From Limosilactobacillus sp. WILCCON 0051 (lineage in GTDB: Bacteria > Bacillota > Bacilli > Lactobacillales > Lactobacillaceae): a stretch of DNA of 64,000 bases. A program made the translations under genes and the position numbers. The notes beneath the pieces were generated by a model. It had not been told where the DNA came from. It ran no database searches and was given only the letters and a program-made list of their open reading frames with translations. This document shows, piece by piece, positions 6,983-45,866 of the stretch. Where the stretch lies: positions 124,001 through 188,000 of the forward strand of contig NZ_CP154878.1 of assembly GCF_039955095.1 (NCBI RefSeq), in the 5' to 3' direction. Numbering within the stretch: the first letter of the stretch is position 1; each line of letters opens with the position of its first letter.

Positions 6983-7221
6983 AATAATTGCAAATAATTG
7001 AAGCGTCATTTTCAAAAGCATGATGGCCGGGTTTTGAGCCTGGCATGATCATCATGGGCTGCCTTGCGTCGGAATTGTCCGCGCTGGCTGAAAATGGCGC
7101 TTTTTAGATTTCATTGCGGTTTGATCATTGAGCCGTCGTGGTGCATTATAATGGCTTTGCCAAATCGGCGCGTTCGAATCGTTAGTTGTTTTAGTTGATC
7201 TGGTTTCGCTGGGGATTTGGT

Positions 7222-7457
7222 TAAGCGTTGGTATTGTGAACTTGTCTGGCTCTACTGTTGATTCGGCCATAAGCAGCGGCATCGGTAAAGCTCTGGGTCT
7301 GCCCGGCTGTTGATATGGTGCGAGCGGATGAGCTACGGCTAAGCGTTGGTGTCGTGAACTTGTCTGGCCCCGCTGTTGATTCGGCCATGAACAGCGGCAT
7401 CGGTAAAGTTCTGGGTCTGCCCGGCTGTTGATATGGTGCGAGCGGATGAGCTACGGC
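7222..7457 (+). repeat. 118-bp tandem duplication
   Basis: Two copies begin TAAGCGTTGGT at 7222 and 7340 and end in GAGCTACGGCT; they differ at only a few positions. No ORF of coding character runs through them. Confidence 0.8.
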
Positions 7458-7546
7458 TGAACTTTAGTGATGGGACAGTTAAAAAAGCTGATTTGGGTCC
7501 GGCTTTGTGAAGAAAAATAGGGATGTGGAGTCTGAAGGGGCCCAAA

Positions 7547-7803
7547 TTACCTACTATTGGCTGATTTGAGACCAATAGTAGGTAACTGTATATTCGGCCG
7601 GCTTAACTTTACCTACTTAAGACGATTTTTCTTCGGATAGTAGGTAAAGTTGCATAATTATGGCTTGATTGGGTCAGACCGACTTTGTGAATTACCTACT
7701 ATTTGGAGCTTTTTCCCAAATAGTAGGTAATGTTAGGATACCCTAACTCGATATACATTGATTTTTACCTACTATACATCGCTTTTTCGAAAAAAGTAGG
7801 TAA
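7547..7803. repeat. Array A: four 39-bp palindromic elements
   Basis: Elements at 7547-7585, 7609-7647, 7692-7730 and 7765-7803. Each begins TTACCTACT and ends AGTAGGTAA with exactly 21 bp between. In elements 1 and 3 the dyad extends to 14 and 15 bp of perfect inverted repeat; in 2 and 4 the cores differ. Gaps are 23, 44 and 34 bp. Nothing indicates a gene. The function is unknown; a repeated protein-binding site or RNA hairpin array are the two obvious readings. Confidence 0.85.
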
Positions 7804-7989
7804 TGAGATTTTCGTCATATGTTATTATGCATGATTTTTTGCATAATTCGCTCTAATGAGATTCGGCAACGACTTTTATGACAACCAGCCAGCTGAATTT
7901 ACAGTGGAAAGTCAATTTTGAACGGTTTCGCCCTTCTTGATTACCCGCTTATTCACCATTTTGGGCAAAGCGAGTGCTATGAGCAATGC

Positions 7990-8333
7990 ATCGGTGACTA
8001 ATCGGCTACATGTAGTGACGTATCGGCGGTTGTCCGGCTACGAGTAAGGTCTCATTGGTGCTTGCCTGACGTTTGGACAGCTGACGGGTTTGCATCGGTG
8101 GTTGTCCGACTGCCGGCAAGGTTCCATCGGCGGTTGATCAGCTGCGGGTAGGATTACATTGGTGGTTGCCTGACGTTTGGACAGCTGACGGGTTTGCATC
8201 GGTGACTATTCGGCTACATGTAGTGACGTATCGGCGGTTGATCAGTTGCGGGTAAGGTCTCATTGGTGCTTGCCTGCCATTTGGACTGCCGATAATGTTC
8301 CGTTAGTGGTTGCCAGAATGTCCGCATCAGTTA
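7990..8333 (+). repeat. Nested higher-order repeat (32+32+40 = 104 bp)
   Basis: A degenerate unit starting ATCGGYGGTTG or ATTGGTG begins at 7990, 8022, 8054, 8094, 8126, 8158, 8198, 8230, 8262 and about 8302. The start-to-start spacings repeat as 32, 32, 40, so three 104-bp super-units are present. The first and third super-units share details (GGCTACATGTAGTGACG) that the second lacks. Confidence 0.75.
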
Positions 8334-8501
8334 ATTTGTCATCCTTTAGTCAATCTATTGAATCCGTCATTGGTTAGCCAAATGGTTGCGGGATTGCCTG
8401 GTTCGATTTGAAAATGGCGCTTTTTCATTTTGCGTCAAGCCAGCTGGGGCGATTCATCTTATAATTAAGCCAAGCATTGATAAAACGAGAGGAGTAATTT
8501 A

Positions 8502-9050
8502 ATGAAAAAAGCATATTTGATTCATGGGACCTCTACTCGTGATGATGACTGGTTCCCATGGCTGGAAAAAGCGGCCCGGCCGGCAATTGAACTGGATCGT
8601 CTCTGGCTGCCGGATCCGTTTACCCCGCAACAGGCAGCATGGGATCAGGCAGTTGATGATCAAATCAAGGCCGAAGATGGGATTACGCTGGTAGCGCATA
8701 GTCTGGGCTGCATAACGGCAGTACGCTGGCTGGCTCGTCATGACGTCAAGAACGTGGGCCTGCTTTTGGTGGGGGCATTTGATCAGCCGCTGCCAAACTA
8801 TGCCGGACTGGATGAATTCATGCAGGACAGTGTTGATTATCGCCAGGTACGGCCAAAGATCAGCCGTGCGACCGTGATCGTAGCGCAAAATGATCCGATC
8901 GCGCCTTATCAATTCGGGGTTGCCATGGCCAATCAGTTAGGTGCCAAGCTGATCGTGCGTCCTGATGGCGGGCATTTCCTAACCAGCGATGGCTTTACGG
9001 AATTTCCGCTGGCGTTGACGGAATTGAAGCGGATTGCCGGCGTTGATTGA
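8502..9050 (+). CDS. RBBP9/YdeN-type alpha/beta serine hydrolase
   Basis: 182 residues. LIHGTSTRDDDW at the N-terminus, nucleophile elbow VAHSLGC (Ser near 68), acid in QNDPIAP (Asp near 130) and catalytic His in DGGHFL. Size and motif order match the small RBBP9/YdeN serine hydrolases, whose natural substrates are mostly unknown. GAGAGGAG precedes the ATG. A TATAAT box lies at 8460. The 3' end of the gene is included in a tandem repeat that continues beyond the stop. Confidence 0.85.
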   Translation: MKKAYLIHGTSTRDDDWFPWLEKAARPAIELDRLWLPDPFTPQQAAWDQAVDDQIKAEDGITLVAHSLGCITAVRWLARHDVKNVGLLLVGAFDQPLPNYAGLDEFMQDSVDYRQVRPKISRATVIVAQNDPIAPYQFGVAMANQLGAKLIVRPDGGHFLTSDGFTEFPLALTELKRIAGVD

Positions 9051-9185
9051 CTGGGCTGGGTGGCACTTGCCAGATTCAACTCAACAAACATTATTTTGTA
9101 ACTGCCGGCGTTGAATAACGGACTGGGTGGCGTTTGCCAGATTCAATTCGACAGGCATTATTTAGTAATTAGCGGTGTTGACTGA
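9036..9185 (+). repeat. 67-68-bp tandem repeat overlapping the hydrolase 3' end
   Basis: GCCGGCGTTGA begins at 9036 (last codons of the hydrolase) and 9104; a diverged third start, AGCGGTGTTGA, is at 9171. The units share GGGTGGC, TTGCCAGATTCAA and CATTATTT. The gene end has apparently been duplicated outward into the spacer. Confidence 0.65.
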
Positions 9186-9235
9186 CTGGCTCCTGCAATG
9201 GCATTCTTATTAAGATCCATTGCACCATAATCCTC

Positions 9236-9275
9236 AAAAAAATCCGCCACGCTGCTGACGTGACGGATCTTTTTA
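9236..9275. terminator. Bidirectional terminator between convergent genes
   Basis: AAAAATCCGCCACG and CGTGACGGATCTTTTT form a stem with A- and T-runs at both sides, between the hydrolase and the convergent cfa gene. Confidence 0.75.
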
Positions 9276-9324
9276 TCCAGTTTTGGCGATTCATCCCCTG
9301 CTGCCATAAGCGCGGGTAGTTAAT

Positions 9325-10506
9325 TTAGTGCTTGTTGCTCATGTAGTCGCGCGTCATTGGCAGGTTCTTGCCGGATGCGCCTTTAGTAATCAGAAACTGC
9401 ATAACGTCAATATTGCCGGATTCAAACGAGGCCGCGCATGCCTGCAGATACAGATCCCACATCCGCGTGAATCGTTCACCCATCATGTCTTGAATGTGGG
9501 CCCGGTGTGCGTTGAAGTTCATGTCCCAGATTTCCAGGGTGCGCTGATAGTGGCGCCGCAGCATTTCGATATCAGCAATCTGCAGGTTGTTTTCAACGAT
9601 ATGGCCAACCATTTCCTGCAGCCCAGGGACATAGCCGCCAGGGAAGATGTACTTGTTGATCCAGCCGTTGTAGGCCCCGCCTTGCTGCCGCGTGATGCCA
9701 TGAATCAGTGCCACGCCGTCGTTGGTCAGGTAGCGGGCAACGTCTTTAAAGTACAGGCCCAGATTCTCCTTGCCGACGTGTTCGAACATCCCCACGGAAA
9801 CGATGTAGTCCCATTGTCGATCGCCCAGTTCACGATAGTCCATCAACAAGACCTCGGCCACGTCCTGCAGGTGTTCTTTTTCAATCGTGTTCTGCACCAA
9901 CCGATACTGTTCCTTGCTCAATGTAACGCCGGTAACTTTCAGCCCGTATTCGCGAGCAGCCGTCAGCATCAGGGTGCCCCAGCCACAGCCGATGTCAAGC
10001 AGCGTCTTGCCTGGTTGCGGGTGGAGCTTGTTGATGATGTGGTGCACCTTAGCCATTTGAGCAGCCTTCAGATCATCGTGGTTGCCATTGGTAAAGTAGG
10101 CACATGAATAGGTCAGCGTGTCATCCAGCCACAGCTTGTAAAAATCGTTGCCGACGTCATAATGGCTCTGGACGTCACTGGCACTTTCCTTTTCGCCATG
10201 CCCCTGTTTAGGCAGCACATGGCGGAACTTGCTGCTGCGCATAAAGCTGTCTTTGCTTTCGTAGGCCGATTCAATGACTTTTTGAATGCTGCCGTCAATT
10301 TCGATTTTCTTATCCATGAAGGCCTCGCCTAAAGCGATTGAAGCGTTTTTGGTCAGGTCGCGCACTGGGATCTTCTCGTTGAACCGGATCGTTGCTTGCG
10401 GCTCGCCATTGCCGTAAACGACTGAGGAACCATCCCAGAAAACAATTTTGACAGGGATGGTAAATGAGCGACTCAGCAGGACTTTATAAAACGTCTTTTC
10501 CAACAT
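9325..10506 (-). CDS. cfa: Cyclopropane-fatty-acyl-phospholipid synthase
   Basis: 393 residues from ATG at 10506 (AAGGAAAA upstream; an in-frame ATG further out at 10581 has no better site and gives an unusual N-terminus). Class I SAM methyltransferase core with [11 protein letters not shown], preceded by [27 protein letters not shown], a Cfa signature, and followed by SVGMFEHVG and the C-terminal Cfa helices. It adds a methylene from SAM across the double bond of membrane acyl chains, a known acid and stress response in lactobacilli. It is divergent from the AI-2E transporter gene. Confidence 0.95.
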
Positions 10507-10588
10507 GAAATTTTCCTTCTTTCCAATCCATATGCACGTTATTATACACCCCACAGTAAAATTAGGCGGAATTTGAATCATAACATGC

Positions 10589-10594
10589 TATACT
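10589..10594 (+). promoter_or_regulatory. Extended -10 box of the AI-2E transporter gene
   Basis: TGC-TATACT, an extended -10 element, 34 bp before the ATG. No convincing -35 box. Confidence 0.4.
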
Positions 10595-10627
10595 TAGGCT
10601 AAATTGTCTAAAAATAGGAGGGATTAG

Positions 10628-11656
10628 ATGGTCAATGCATGGCATCGATTCATCGACAACGTACCATTGCGGCGCTTTGCCGTTTTGGCACTGCTGATCT
10701 GGGTGCTCTACTTGATGCGGGGCATGCTAAGTACGATTCTGCTGACGTTTATCTTTACATACATTGTCGTGCACTGGGTTCGCTTCGTTCAGCGCTGGAT
10801 TCCCAGACTGCCCTCGCTGCTGGTAGTCCTGGCAACCTATGTCGTTTTGATTGCGGCTGTTTATTTTGCGGTAACCAAATACTTGCCGCTGCTGATCAAT
10901 GAAATCATCAAGATGGTCAATTCGGTCTTGAAATTTTATCAGTCGCAGGATGGCTATTGGCTGATCAAGCAGCTTAATCACTATATTAGTGCCAGTACCG
11001 TAACTGCGCAGGTCAAGCATGGGATTAATCTGGCCTTTTCAACTTTAACCAGTCTGACGAAGATGGCAGTGACGTTCTTCATGTCATTTATTCTGAGTTT
11101 CTTTTATACGATTGAGCTCAAGCAGATGTATTCGTTCAGTCGGCTGTTTTTGACCAGTGATCTGTTCAGCTGGCTGTTTGAGGACATCTACTTTTTTGGC
11201 AAGAAGTTTGTCAATACGTTTGGGGTGGTCTTAGAGGCGCAGTTCTTCATCGCGCTTTGCAACACGGCGCTGACGACGATCTGTCTGATGTTTATGCATA
11301 TGCCGCAGATTCTAGCGTTGGCTTTGATGGTCTTTATCTTCAGCCTGGTGCCGGTTGCCGGGGTGATCATCTCACTGATTCCTTTGAGCATGGTTGGCTA
11401 TTCGGTTGGCGGCATTCGCGATGTAATCTATATCATCATTATGATTATTGCAATTCACGCGCTGGAATCATATGTCTTGAATCCCAAGTTTATGTCCAGC
11501 CGTACGGAACTGCCGATCTTTTATACGTTCGTCGTACTGCTGGTCAGTGAAAAGCTGTTTGGTACCTGGGGCTTGATCGTCGGTGTGCCGATTTTTACTT
11601 TCCTGCTTGATATCATGGGCGTAAAGTCGATTGGAGACAAAAAACAAAGTGAATAG
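10628..11656 (+). CDS. AI-2E family transporter (PerM-like membrane protein)
   Basis: 342 residues with about eight membrane segments. Paired N-terminal helices, a central soluble stretch (about 95-135), and a C-terminal half with SLVPVAGVIISLIP, the ESYVLNPKFM motif and GTWGLIVGVPIF, all typical of the AI-2E/PerM family. Members are called autoinducer-2 exporters from one E. coli case, but several act as Na+/H+ antiporters, so the substrate is open. AGGAGGG lies about 8 nt before ATG. A terminator follows. Confidence 0.9.
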   Translation: MVNAWHRFIDNVPLRRFAVLALLIWVLYLMRGMLSTILLTFIFTYIVVHWVRFVQRWIPRLPSLLVVLATYVVLIAAVYFAVTKYLPLLINEIIKMVNSVLKFYQSQDGYWLIKQLNHYISASTVTAQVKHGINLAFSTLTSLTKMAVTFFMSFILSFFYTIELKQMYSFSRLFLTSDLFSWLFEDIYFFGKKFVNTFGVVLEAQFFIALCNTALTTICLMFMHMPQILALALMVFIFSLVPVAGVIISLIPLSMVGYSVGGIRDVIYIIIMIIAIHALESYVLNPKFMSSRTELPIFYTFVVLLVSEKLFGTWGLIVGVPIFTFLLDIMGVKSIGDKKQSE

Positions 11657-11664
11657 GTTTAATG

Positions 11665-11697
11665 ACCAGCCTTGATGAAAATCGGTGCTGGTTTTTT
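11665..11697 (+). terminator. Terminator of the AI-2E transporter gene
   Basis: ACCAGC-x-TTGAT pairs with ATCGG-x-GCTGGT, followed by TTTTTT. Confidence 0.75.
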
Positions 11698-11720
11698 AAT
11701 CCAACTGGTGCAGCCGGCTT

Positions 11721-11918
11721 GAGCGGTTTAAGGTTTTCGCCATCGTGGTCGCTAATTGGGTTATGATGAGACAATGTAGGGCAGCCGAGCGATTCCAGCT
11801 CTTCATTAACGTGGCTGCTGCCTGAGTTACGATGAAGCGATGCAGGGCAGTCGAGCGATTTAAACTTTCCGCCATCGTGGCTGATGCCTGAGTCATAATG
11901 AAGCGATTAAGGACATCA
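11721..11918 (+). repeat. 66-bp imperfect tandem repeat, three units
   Basis: Units begin GAGCG at 11721, 11787 and 11853, exactly 66 bp apart, sharing GCCATCGTGG or similar and a TATGATGA/CGATGAAGCGAT segment. Confidence 0.7.
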
Positions 11919-12029
11919 TCGTTAGGAAACTGCTCTTGATTGTCGATTTGACGTTTCAGCTGCTTGTTAAAATGTTTAGCAGATGAAATATACAAAGATT
12001 CTTGTATAAAACGTATGACGGAAATATCA

Positions 12030-12284
12030 TTACCTACTTTTATCGAAAAAGCGATGTATAGTAGGTAAAATTCGTTGTATAAAACTGTTTTCAGAGACAA
12101 TCCGGGTGTGTCTTACCTACTTTTATCGATAAATTTCAATATAGTAGGTAACTGGTTAAGACCAATTGGCGAGAATATACAAAATTACCTACTATTAGCA
12201 AAAAATTCGGCAATAGTAGGTAAAATTGCCAAGATCGGTTATACATTACCTACTATTGCCATGAAAACGCAAAATAGTAGGTAA
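12030..12284. repeat. Array B: four 39-bp palindromic elements
   Basis: Elements at 12030-12068, 12113-12151, 12185-12223 and 12246-12284, each TTACCTACT, 21 bp, AGTAGGTAA. Gaps are 44, 33 and 22 bp. The first element is nearly the reverse complement of the last element of array A, and the similarity continues into its outer flank (TATGACG-rich), so the arrays are diverged inverted relatives on either side of the 8.5-11.7 kb genes. Confidence 0.85.
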
Positions 12285-12298
12285 ATCGTGGATGAGTG

Positions 12299-12530
12299 GC
12301 ATCAAGCTTGACGATGGAGTAAATGGTAAAACTGCTGATGTCTACCGCTAGCCTAACAACAGTGGCATCAAGCTTGACGATGGGGTAAATGGTAAAACTG
12401 CTGATGTCTACCGCTAGCCTAACAACAGTGGCATCAAGCTTGACGATGGGGTAAATGGTAAAACTGCTGATGTCTACCGCTAGCCTAACAACAGTGGCAT
12501 CAAGCTTGACGATGAGATAAATAACAAGTC
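12299..12530 (+). repeat. 66-bp tandem repeat, three full units plus a partial
   Basis: GCATCAAGCTTG recurs at 12299, 12365, 12431 and 12497, exactly 66 bp apart. The first three units are almost identical (one A/G change), the fourth is cut and diverged. Near-identity suggests recent expansion. Confidence 0.9.
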
Positions 12531-12612
12531 GGCCGATGCTCAATGGCGATAAGGCGAGCGGAACGTGAATAGTTGACTCGTACTCCTATTAGGCTGGGAT
12601 TTGGCAGCTTTG

Positions 12613-12762
12613 GTTTACAATTGTAATTACGGGCAATCCATGAAGTTGATCTGAGAATATAAGTTTACAAATGTAATTACGGGTAATCCATGGCGTTGAT
12701 TTAAGAATAGAAGTTTACAAATGTAACTATCAATGATCCATGCAACTGATCTGAGAATGACG
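12613..12762 (+). repeat. 50-bp tandem repeat, three units
   Basis: GTTTACAA begins at 12613, 12663 and 12713, followed in each by TGTAA, an AATCCATG or GATCCATG word and a GAGAAT or AAGAAT word. Units diverge progressively. Confidence 0.75.
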
Positions 12763-45827: not shown

Positions 45828-45866
45828 TTACCTACTATTGGCTGATTTGACGCCAGAAGGAGGTAA
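45828..45866 (+). repeat. Decayed ninth 39-bp palindromic element
   Basis: Left arm TTACCTACTATTGG is intact; the right arm has decayed to CCAGAAGGAGGTAA, but the total length is still 39 bp. Sequence on both sides matches element 1 of array A. Homology stops at 45891 where element 2 should start, at the end of a miniature IS256. Confidence 0.75.

Follow-up and report, generated by a model that had tools for sequence, protein, structure and literature searches.

Helically phased arrays of 39-bp dyads in Limosilactobacillus sp. WILCCON 0051 point to an undescribed two-part DNA system with a nuclease-like candidate partner

The stretch of DNA analysed here, hereafter the window, comprises 64,000 nucleotides (positions 124,001-188,000) of Limosilactobacillus sp. 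WILCCON 0051, whose genome (G000) is one contig of 2.356 Mb with a DnaA-domain match at base 301. Nine copies of a 39-bp palindromic element lie in the window (Table 1), each a dyad of two inverted 9-bp half-sites around a 21-bp core, and eight of them match TTACCTACT-N21-AGTAGGTAA exactly, while one has a single mismatch and shuffled sequences lead one to expect 0.02 copies. All nine places listed in a preliminary description of this DNA are real, although the constant 9-bp ends that it claimed hold for eight copies, the ninth being an imperfect member in its right arm. Eight dyads form two arrays of four, which are complementary to each other (arms 7752-7823 and 12010-12081, 72 nt, 90%) and which, to judge from this match, are inverted copies of one ancestral unit. 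The spacings reported earlier are correct as values but, as these arrays are inverted copies, their mirrored order does not amount to two independent observations. The ninth dyad stands 3' of what appears by eye to be the end of a ribosomal RNA operon and is read as the remnant of an array.

Table 1. Dyads and arrays of the window (window positions) and copies of an inserted element elsewhere in the genome (G000 positions).
Feature	Position	Strand	Basis and remarks
Array unit 1 (T orientation)	7500..7847	+	Four 39-bp dyads, three conserved linkers; dyad pattern, ends read by eye
Conserved ends of array unit 1	within 7500..7847	+	Left CTTTGTGAAGAAA, right TTATGCATGATTTTTTGCATAAT; by eye, from part of the flank alignment of 39 arrays
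Dyad A, array 1	7547..7585	.	Exact; 62 bp to B
Dyad B, array 1	7609..7647	.	Exact; 83 bp to C
Dyad C, array 1	7692..7730	.	Exact; 73 bp to D
Dyad D, array 1	7765..7803	.	Exact
Array 2 (A orientation), inverted relative of array 1	12030..12284	-	Four dyads; dyad pattern and complementary arms
Dyad D, array 2	12030..12068	.	Exact
Dyad C, array 2	12113..12151	.	Exact; 83 bp from D
Dyad B, array 2	12185..12223	.	Exact; 72 bp from C
Dyad A, array 2	12246..12284	.	Exact; 61 bp from B
Lone dyad A with truncated first linker	45828..45866	+	One mismatch in the right arm, which ends AGGAGGTAA
1.55-kb element, copy 1 (G000)	762160-763705
1.55-kb element, copy 2 (G000)	867235-868779
1.55-kb element, copy 3 (G000)	1393858-1395402
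1.55-kb element, copy 4 (G000)	1482637-1484180
1.55-kb element, copy 5 (G000)	1801357-1802900
1.55-kb element, copy 6 (G000)	2146850-2148393

A genome-wide search found 184 dyads at up to two mismatches, and a reversed control pattern gave none; the 1.046 Mb of the genome that were read include all 184, and 186 dyads when up to four mismatches are allowed. The 186 dyads comprise 39 intact arrays of four, seven incomplete groups of three, and nine that stand singly. Of the groups of three, five are completed by a single that lies beyond an insertion of about 1.55 kb, in the other two the missing member is present as a 38-bp dyad, and two further singles belong together as another split array. 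The single at 2,290,245, which departs from the pattern at four positions and falls within a called gene, is probably a chance match. In total, 46 arrays have four elements; with the additional split array they make about 47, and the window holds the remnant besides. From their conserved linkers, and from the extent of the unit, which continues for about 45 bp past the dyads on either side, these arrays appear to derive from a single four-element unit, some 350 bp long.

The geometry of this population is nearly invariant. When each left half-site is paired with the next right one within 100 bp, at no more than one mismatch each, 178 of 180 pairs span 39 bp, and 288 of the 295 exact half-sites in the part read belong to a 39-bp dyad. 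The core length, previously held never to vary, does so in two 38-bp pairs of this genome and in 40-bp dyads at the loci of other genomes (16/105 for TTACCTACT and 4/53 for a second spelling, TTACTTACT, counts in which some loci overlap and a few dyads enter twice). The sequence of the core is nearly but not entirely free, as it contains a central T-run (an A-run on the other strand) and position-specific cores recur, e.g., ATGCATCGCTTTTTTGAAAAA in the fourth element. The spacing 62/83/73 occurs in 24 of the 39 intact arrays, and the remaining intact arrays deviate by 1 bp or by one helical turn of 10-11 bp (62 to 72/73, 83 to 93, 73 to 84); one array, array 2 of the window, has 61/72/83. In the genome-wide check that had been proposed, neither length nor spacing is random. 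The arrays are intergenic and overrepresented between convergent genes (24/45 against 75/453 gaps of at least 100 bp, P 1e-7), an enrichment that is weaker against gaps of at least 400 bp (34/128, P 0.0017), both backgrounds including array-bearing gaps and resting on gene calls from our own hexamer model. A clustered regularly interspaced short palindromic repeat (CRISPR) array was rejected as an identification, given that the arrays have their linkers in common and vary within the dyad, whereas a CRISPR array has identical repeats and unique spacers.

Two features of the distribution of these arrays are recorded here for their own sake. Firstly, the segment of G000 from 137 to 761 kb (about 625 kb, close to the origin on one side) is array-free except for the remnant at 169,828, and arrays are frequent elsewhere. 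Secondly, the 1.55-kb insertion is an element with six copies in the 1.046 Mb read, which are 99.6-100% identical and all lie inside arrays, 14-27 bp from a dyad. It resembles an IS3/IS150-type insertion sequence and apparently has the arrays as its target; although many stretches were read because they surround arrays, both copies in a contiguous 780 kb are also in arrays.

The selective constraint on the dyads was assessed against Limosilactobacillus (L.) mucosae DSM 13345 (G031) at 14 orthologous array loci, hand-picked from ortholog matches, with indels uncounted. Half-sites differ at 19/668 positions (2.8%), cores at 71/789 (9.0%) and flanking intergenic DNA at 774/7643 (10.1%), the corresponding counts being 160/2099 for the other positions of the unit and 525/6824 for called genes. 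Half-sites diverge about 3.2 times more slowly than cores (P 6e-7) and about 3.6 times more slowly than flanks, whereas cores and flanks do not differ (P 0.35), which argues that the half-sites are kept in place by selection and that the core is nearly free.

The palindromic arms and the position at gene ends would also suit hairpins of RNA or single-stranded DNA, such as terminators, mRNA ends or repetitive extragenic palindromic (REP)-like structures, and an RNA role had been suggested earlier. However, the two halves of a dyad vary independently within genomes. In G000, left and right half-sites are alike at position 9 in 144/186 dyads (146 expected) and at position 1 in 157 (153.5 expected), and the only clear exception, position 5 in one metagenome-assembled genome (MAG; G063) with 29/29 alike against 22.1 expected, is put down to the two separate spellings in that genome; outside G000 the sets are small, with 2 to 29 dyads. 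Co-variation of the arms, which a hairpin would require, is not seen, and the elements are better explained as DNA sites than as RNA hairpins. Moreover, many cores are non-complementary although the total length is nearly fixed, the spacing is kept in helical turns (see below), and Rfam returned only two matches far below the gathering score for positions 7300-12700 of the window and none for 11 loci of other genomes. We therefore regard a hairpin function as very improbable.

Among 55 relatives, the dyad pattern is found only in G031, with 47 dyads, and in one genome with a single, probably chance match. An exact scan of one genome per species detected it also in MAGs of Lachnospiraceae, Ruminococcaceae/Oscillospiraceae and a Treponema, in which the 39-bp dyads are spaced at 62-63, 73-74, 82, 124-126 and 178-187 bp and once at 129 bp, and G063 carries in addition the second spelling, TTACTTACT...AGTAAGTAA, in runs at 73-74 bp. 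A match in a Methylococcales genome (L012) was set aside as probably due to chance, with one copy, one also in the reversed control and none of the partner protein introduced below. A phage origin was likewise discarded, as viral contigs gave no exact dyad or two-dyad-pattern match. An order-level survey around the array MAG G059 for this spelling recovered 1/295 genomes, G059 itself, which shows only that the spelling is rare.

The protein that most likely is cognate to the 39-bp arrays is a single-copy protein of about 270 amino acids encoded at 1,994,689-1,995,498 of G000, outside the window. It was found by neighbourhood, as one family lies beside arrays in this genome, G060, G063 and the Treponema (G064), and by motif it is present also in G059; among shared neighbour families it ranked fourth, after ABC transporter, MATE-like and response-regulator families, which are common everywhere. 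The candidate is present in 11/12 genomes with several dyads (this genome and all ten array MAGs) and in 0/28 with none or one (40 genomes searched, P 5e-9), where 26 of the 28 negative genomes are of one genus and the array MAGs, which may be incomplete, were found via one half-site spelling. It is absent in G031, 26 other Limosilactobacillus, the Methylococcales genome and one further genome, G061.

No Pfam family matched this protein, and a Pfam scan of 68 members of its family gave only scattered weak matches. At a threshold of E 1e-8 the family numbers at least 6,258 proteins, and every name among the matches listed was 'hypothetical protein'. The predicted architecture of the partner protein consists of an N-terminal coiled coil with a beta-hairpin, followed by a C-terminal TnsA-like domain whose predicted fold is that of the PD-(D/E)XK nuclease superfamily. 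Residues E160, D191 and E206 are found in 68/68 aligned rows and H207 in 67/68, and K158 is invariant. Foldseek returned nothing from PDB at E < 0.001, and among PDB sequences a profile search matched a single chain, at E 0.18. The C-terminal domain matches PADLOC PDC-S68, with E values as low as 1e-28 (G060 protein) and 1e-23 (G000 protein). The same domain also occurs in open frames of about 1,200 amino acids in G524, G410, G705 and G056.

The link between arrays and this family extends beyond one spelling. A blind search for dyad families with inverted 9-bp arms was carried out at 38 homologue loci, with up to 1.5 kb on each side, these being 29/30 of a first set (L194 left out) and 9/16 from a phylum survey (L199-L204 and L209, which cover the C-terminal part only, left out). 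At least three dyads were present at 29/38 loci and at least four at 24/38, against 3 and 1 in 38 MAG segments without TTACNNACT dyads, 0 and 0 in 38 shuffled loci, and 11 and 9 in 60 segments of this genome, where those 9 look like repeats inside genes. Among the loci not chosen through arrays, 7/9 have at least three dyads. The half-site spelling mostly varies between loci (TTACTTACT, TTACATGTA, TGCAGTA, CATACGTTG, TGTCGGTAA, TTACCTGCA, TTAGCCTA, ACCGCCTGG and others), several paralogues with different half-sites can occur in one genome, and the home array lies 5' of the gene in 21/25 loci (scored for 25 of the 26 listed). In G072, TTACCTGCA arrays stand also at two other places in the 394 kb read, so that L. 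mucosae is not alone in having dispersed arrays. Four other spellings were tested in G072, of which three were seen at home only and one has a single weak match elsewhere.

The spacing of these differently spelled arrays is helically phased. With one spacing for each of 24 loci, the period is 10.5-10.6 bp (R 0.81, 0/20,000 null draws), and all 45 distinct spacings give R 0.74, with 59 and 111 off phase. Excluded from this sample were the nine loci that did not reach three dyads, the doubtful L176 and L182, L166 and L192, whose twins L165 and L191 were kept, and L173, as well as distances above 130 bp; three of the 24 loci share the TTACCTACT spelling, and the dyads of L183 and L188 are weak. 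Whole turns between neighbours would place the dyads of an array on one helix face.

Array loci were also compared in two genomes that lack the protein. In G031, where the partner is lost, 14 of 17 assignable half-site changes from the consensus occurred, against 3 in this genome (P 0.013), two more deviating in both lineages and a small ascertainment bias arising from the choice of elements by their match in this genome. Several arrays of G031 are shorter or missing, losses that may partly be due to assembly, as this genome is a draft with some arrays at contig ends. G061 retains only scraps of arrays: 19 array loci have both flanks in the part read, one with a remnant and 18 without an array, and of the latter 14 have a gap of 16-332 bp where G000 has 0.6-3.4 kb, three have other DNA of 0.7-2.3 kb and one is rearranged. 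No clean insertion border was seen among the 19 loci compared. The nuclease locus in both G031 and G061 continues into different DNA downstream. At these 14 loci, two of whose G000 intervals include the 1.55-kb insertion, the difference from G061 thus exceeds the array unit.

These comparisons bear on the idea that the arrays are ordinary miniature inverted-repeat elements of an unknown transposase that now drift, the nuclease gene being merely nearby. A 350-bp or so unit dispersed in some 47 copies, its presence in some lineages only and the 18/19 array-free loci of G061 are what such elements would leave. Drift, however, would not make half-sites diverge more slowly than cores and flanks, no inverted repeats or duplications were seen by eye at the unit ends in part of the flank alignment (no formal test was made), and differently spelled arrays lie beside most of the homologues examined. 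We consider this origin quite improbable.

The reading that we favour, with a probability of roughly 0.6, is that the dyad arrays and their cognate nuclease-like protein form a two-part DNA system. Each element would offer two inverted 9-bp half-sites, a fixed 30 bp apart (about 100 angstroms by the rise per base) around a free, T/A-rich core, and a rigid protein dimer would bridge both, with the coiled coil possibly setting the fixed length of the dyad. Neighbouring dimers could bind cooperatively, stacked along one face of the helix, and an array 5' of the gene could provide autoregulation. The dispersed arrays would make up an extragenic, non-autonomous population, slow to spread and maintained only as long as the genome has the enzyme, as REP doublets forming hairpins (REPINs) are with theirs, and breaks made by the enzyme and repaired from another array could have put the four-element unit at about 47 places. 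Paired sites some three turns apart for a cooperative protein had been suggested in the preliminary description; that suggestion gains indirect support from the dyad length, the phasing, the half-site constraint, the independent halves and the candidate partner.

Several observations weigh against this two-part system. In the expected catalytic E...D...(D/E)xK motif, E-H-x replaces ExK and the expected lysine is missing. In G062, G065, G066 and G067, the homologues found carry spellings other than the dyads that led there. A tree of the proteins (L173, L176 and L183 left out) does not group those with TTACCTACT, the half-site not being linked to protein phylogeny. In addition, the family is sporadic: at E 1e-15, full-length members turned up in only 4/397 genomes of the phylum survey besides the centre, and six more matches cover the C-terminal part only.

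The missing lysine would suit a protein that is instead a DNA-binding regulator or chromosome organiser, with arrays that anchor or insulate at gene ends and are neither cut nor spread. The intergenic position with its enrichment between convergent genes, the half-sites selected in place and the operator-like home array 5' of the gene agree with this as well. Nevertheless, copies of one four-element unit with shared linkers need some dispersal, anchoring does not call for a nuclease fold whose acids are conserved, and sporadic occurrence together with loss in the sister genome is ill-suited to a basic chromosome function; we hold this explanation to be rather unlikely.

Sporadic occurrence and several paralogues with different half-sites in one genome are also compatible with a role in defence or addiction, in which chromosomal arrays would mark self or restrain the nuclease, and array-free DNA or array loss would release it. 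The C-terminal domain resembles the end of PDC-S68, a PADLOC candidate defence family, and part of PDC-S69. The likeness to PDC-S68 is confined to the last 100-130 or so positions of profiles 1,202-1,273 positions long, whereas here the domain belongs to a protein of 257-275 amino acids beside a phased array; with the full architecture of about 1,200 positions lacking, membership in PDC-S68 was rejected, and the short PDC-S69 (289) matches weakly (6e-6). Moreover, G031 keeps arrays without the gene. A defence or addiction function thus appears improbable.

Returning to the two-part system, its closest counterpart is the pairing of REPINs with REP-associated tyrosine transposases (RAYTs) in Pseudomonas and E. 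coli. Both comprise dispersed extragenic inverted pairs with a variable middle and a chromosomal enzyme gene beside its own repeats, the REPIN design being that of PMC3116915. The likeness holds at the genome level, with an enzyme gene, a dispersed extragenic partner and decay after enzyme loss (PMC8049555 and PMC3116915), the former reporting fewer repeats in E. coli where the enzyme is missing. The enzymes differ, the RAYT being an HUH/Y1 transposase and the candidate partner here PD-(D/E)XK-like by prediction. The arms described here also lack hairpin co-variation, the sites are grouped into arrays of several dyads with whole helical turns between them, and several paralogues per genome have different half-sites. 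The arrays are therefore not a member of the REPIN-RAYT group, as both the enzyme and the hairpin features fail; by analogy, they would work most like it, with an unrelated enzyme and geometry. A RAYT/Y1 transposase was rejected as universal partner, since PF01797, present in this genome and four array MAGs, is absent in 6/10 array MAGs (G056, G059, G060, G062, G063 and G066, which may be incomplete).

Other known systems are more distant. The bacterial interspersed mosaic elements (BIMEs) and REP arrays of enterobacteria are palindromic clusters at gene ends, especially between convergent genes, a position that they share with the arrays reported here; they are not known to have a spaced dyad of fixed 39-bp length or a comparable rule of spacing, and their enzyme is another one. 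TnsA of Tn7 has 7% identity to the candidate partner, whose N-terminus is a coiled coil, and no transposon genes were noticed by eye beside the partner gene in this genome. The operators of NikR and BirA and the CIRCE operator consist of two inverted half-sites with a spacer of fixed length at promoters, whereas the present arrays are dispersed, phased and located at gene ends. No description of the array family was found in the open-access literature searched, nor did scans of Pfam, NCBIfam, PADLOC, PHROGs and Rfam reveal one, in agreement with the earlier statement that no such family was known.

A wider reading is that this is a two-component system of at least two phyla, in which each enzyme recognises a half-site spelled in its own way, senses whole turns of the helix, and both maintains and spreads a population of arrays at gene ends of the host, as a counterpart to REPIN-RAYT built from a different enzyme and mode of DNA recognition. 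We put this forward tentatively, as possible rather than probable. The arrays are a proposed DNA partner for a large protein family without a Pfam match, and they offer a readable code, in that a gene's neighbouring array hints at its half-site, dyad length and spacing. They also open several questions to experiment in a harmless gut Lactobacillus that has natural strains with and without the enzyme, namely how DNA is recognised at a distance, how cooperativity works in helical steps, and why bacteria keep dispersed extragenic palindromes.

Some minor features accompany the arrays. The third linker of the unit contains a further conserved short palindrome, GTTAGG-N4-CCTAAC, and another one, TTATGCA...TGCATAA, follows the fourth dyad, while Oscillospiraceae units carry ATACCCCCAGGGGGTAT beside the dyad; such palindromes may be a second type of site of the system. 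Around both arrays of the window, between called genes, lie tandem repeats of 118, 104, 67, 66 and 50 bp (7219-7454, 7987-8326, 9053-9186, 12295-12538 and 12613-12762).

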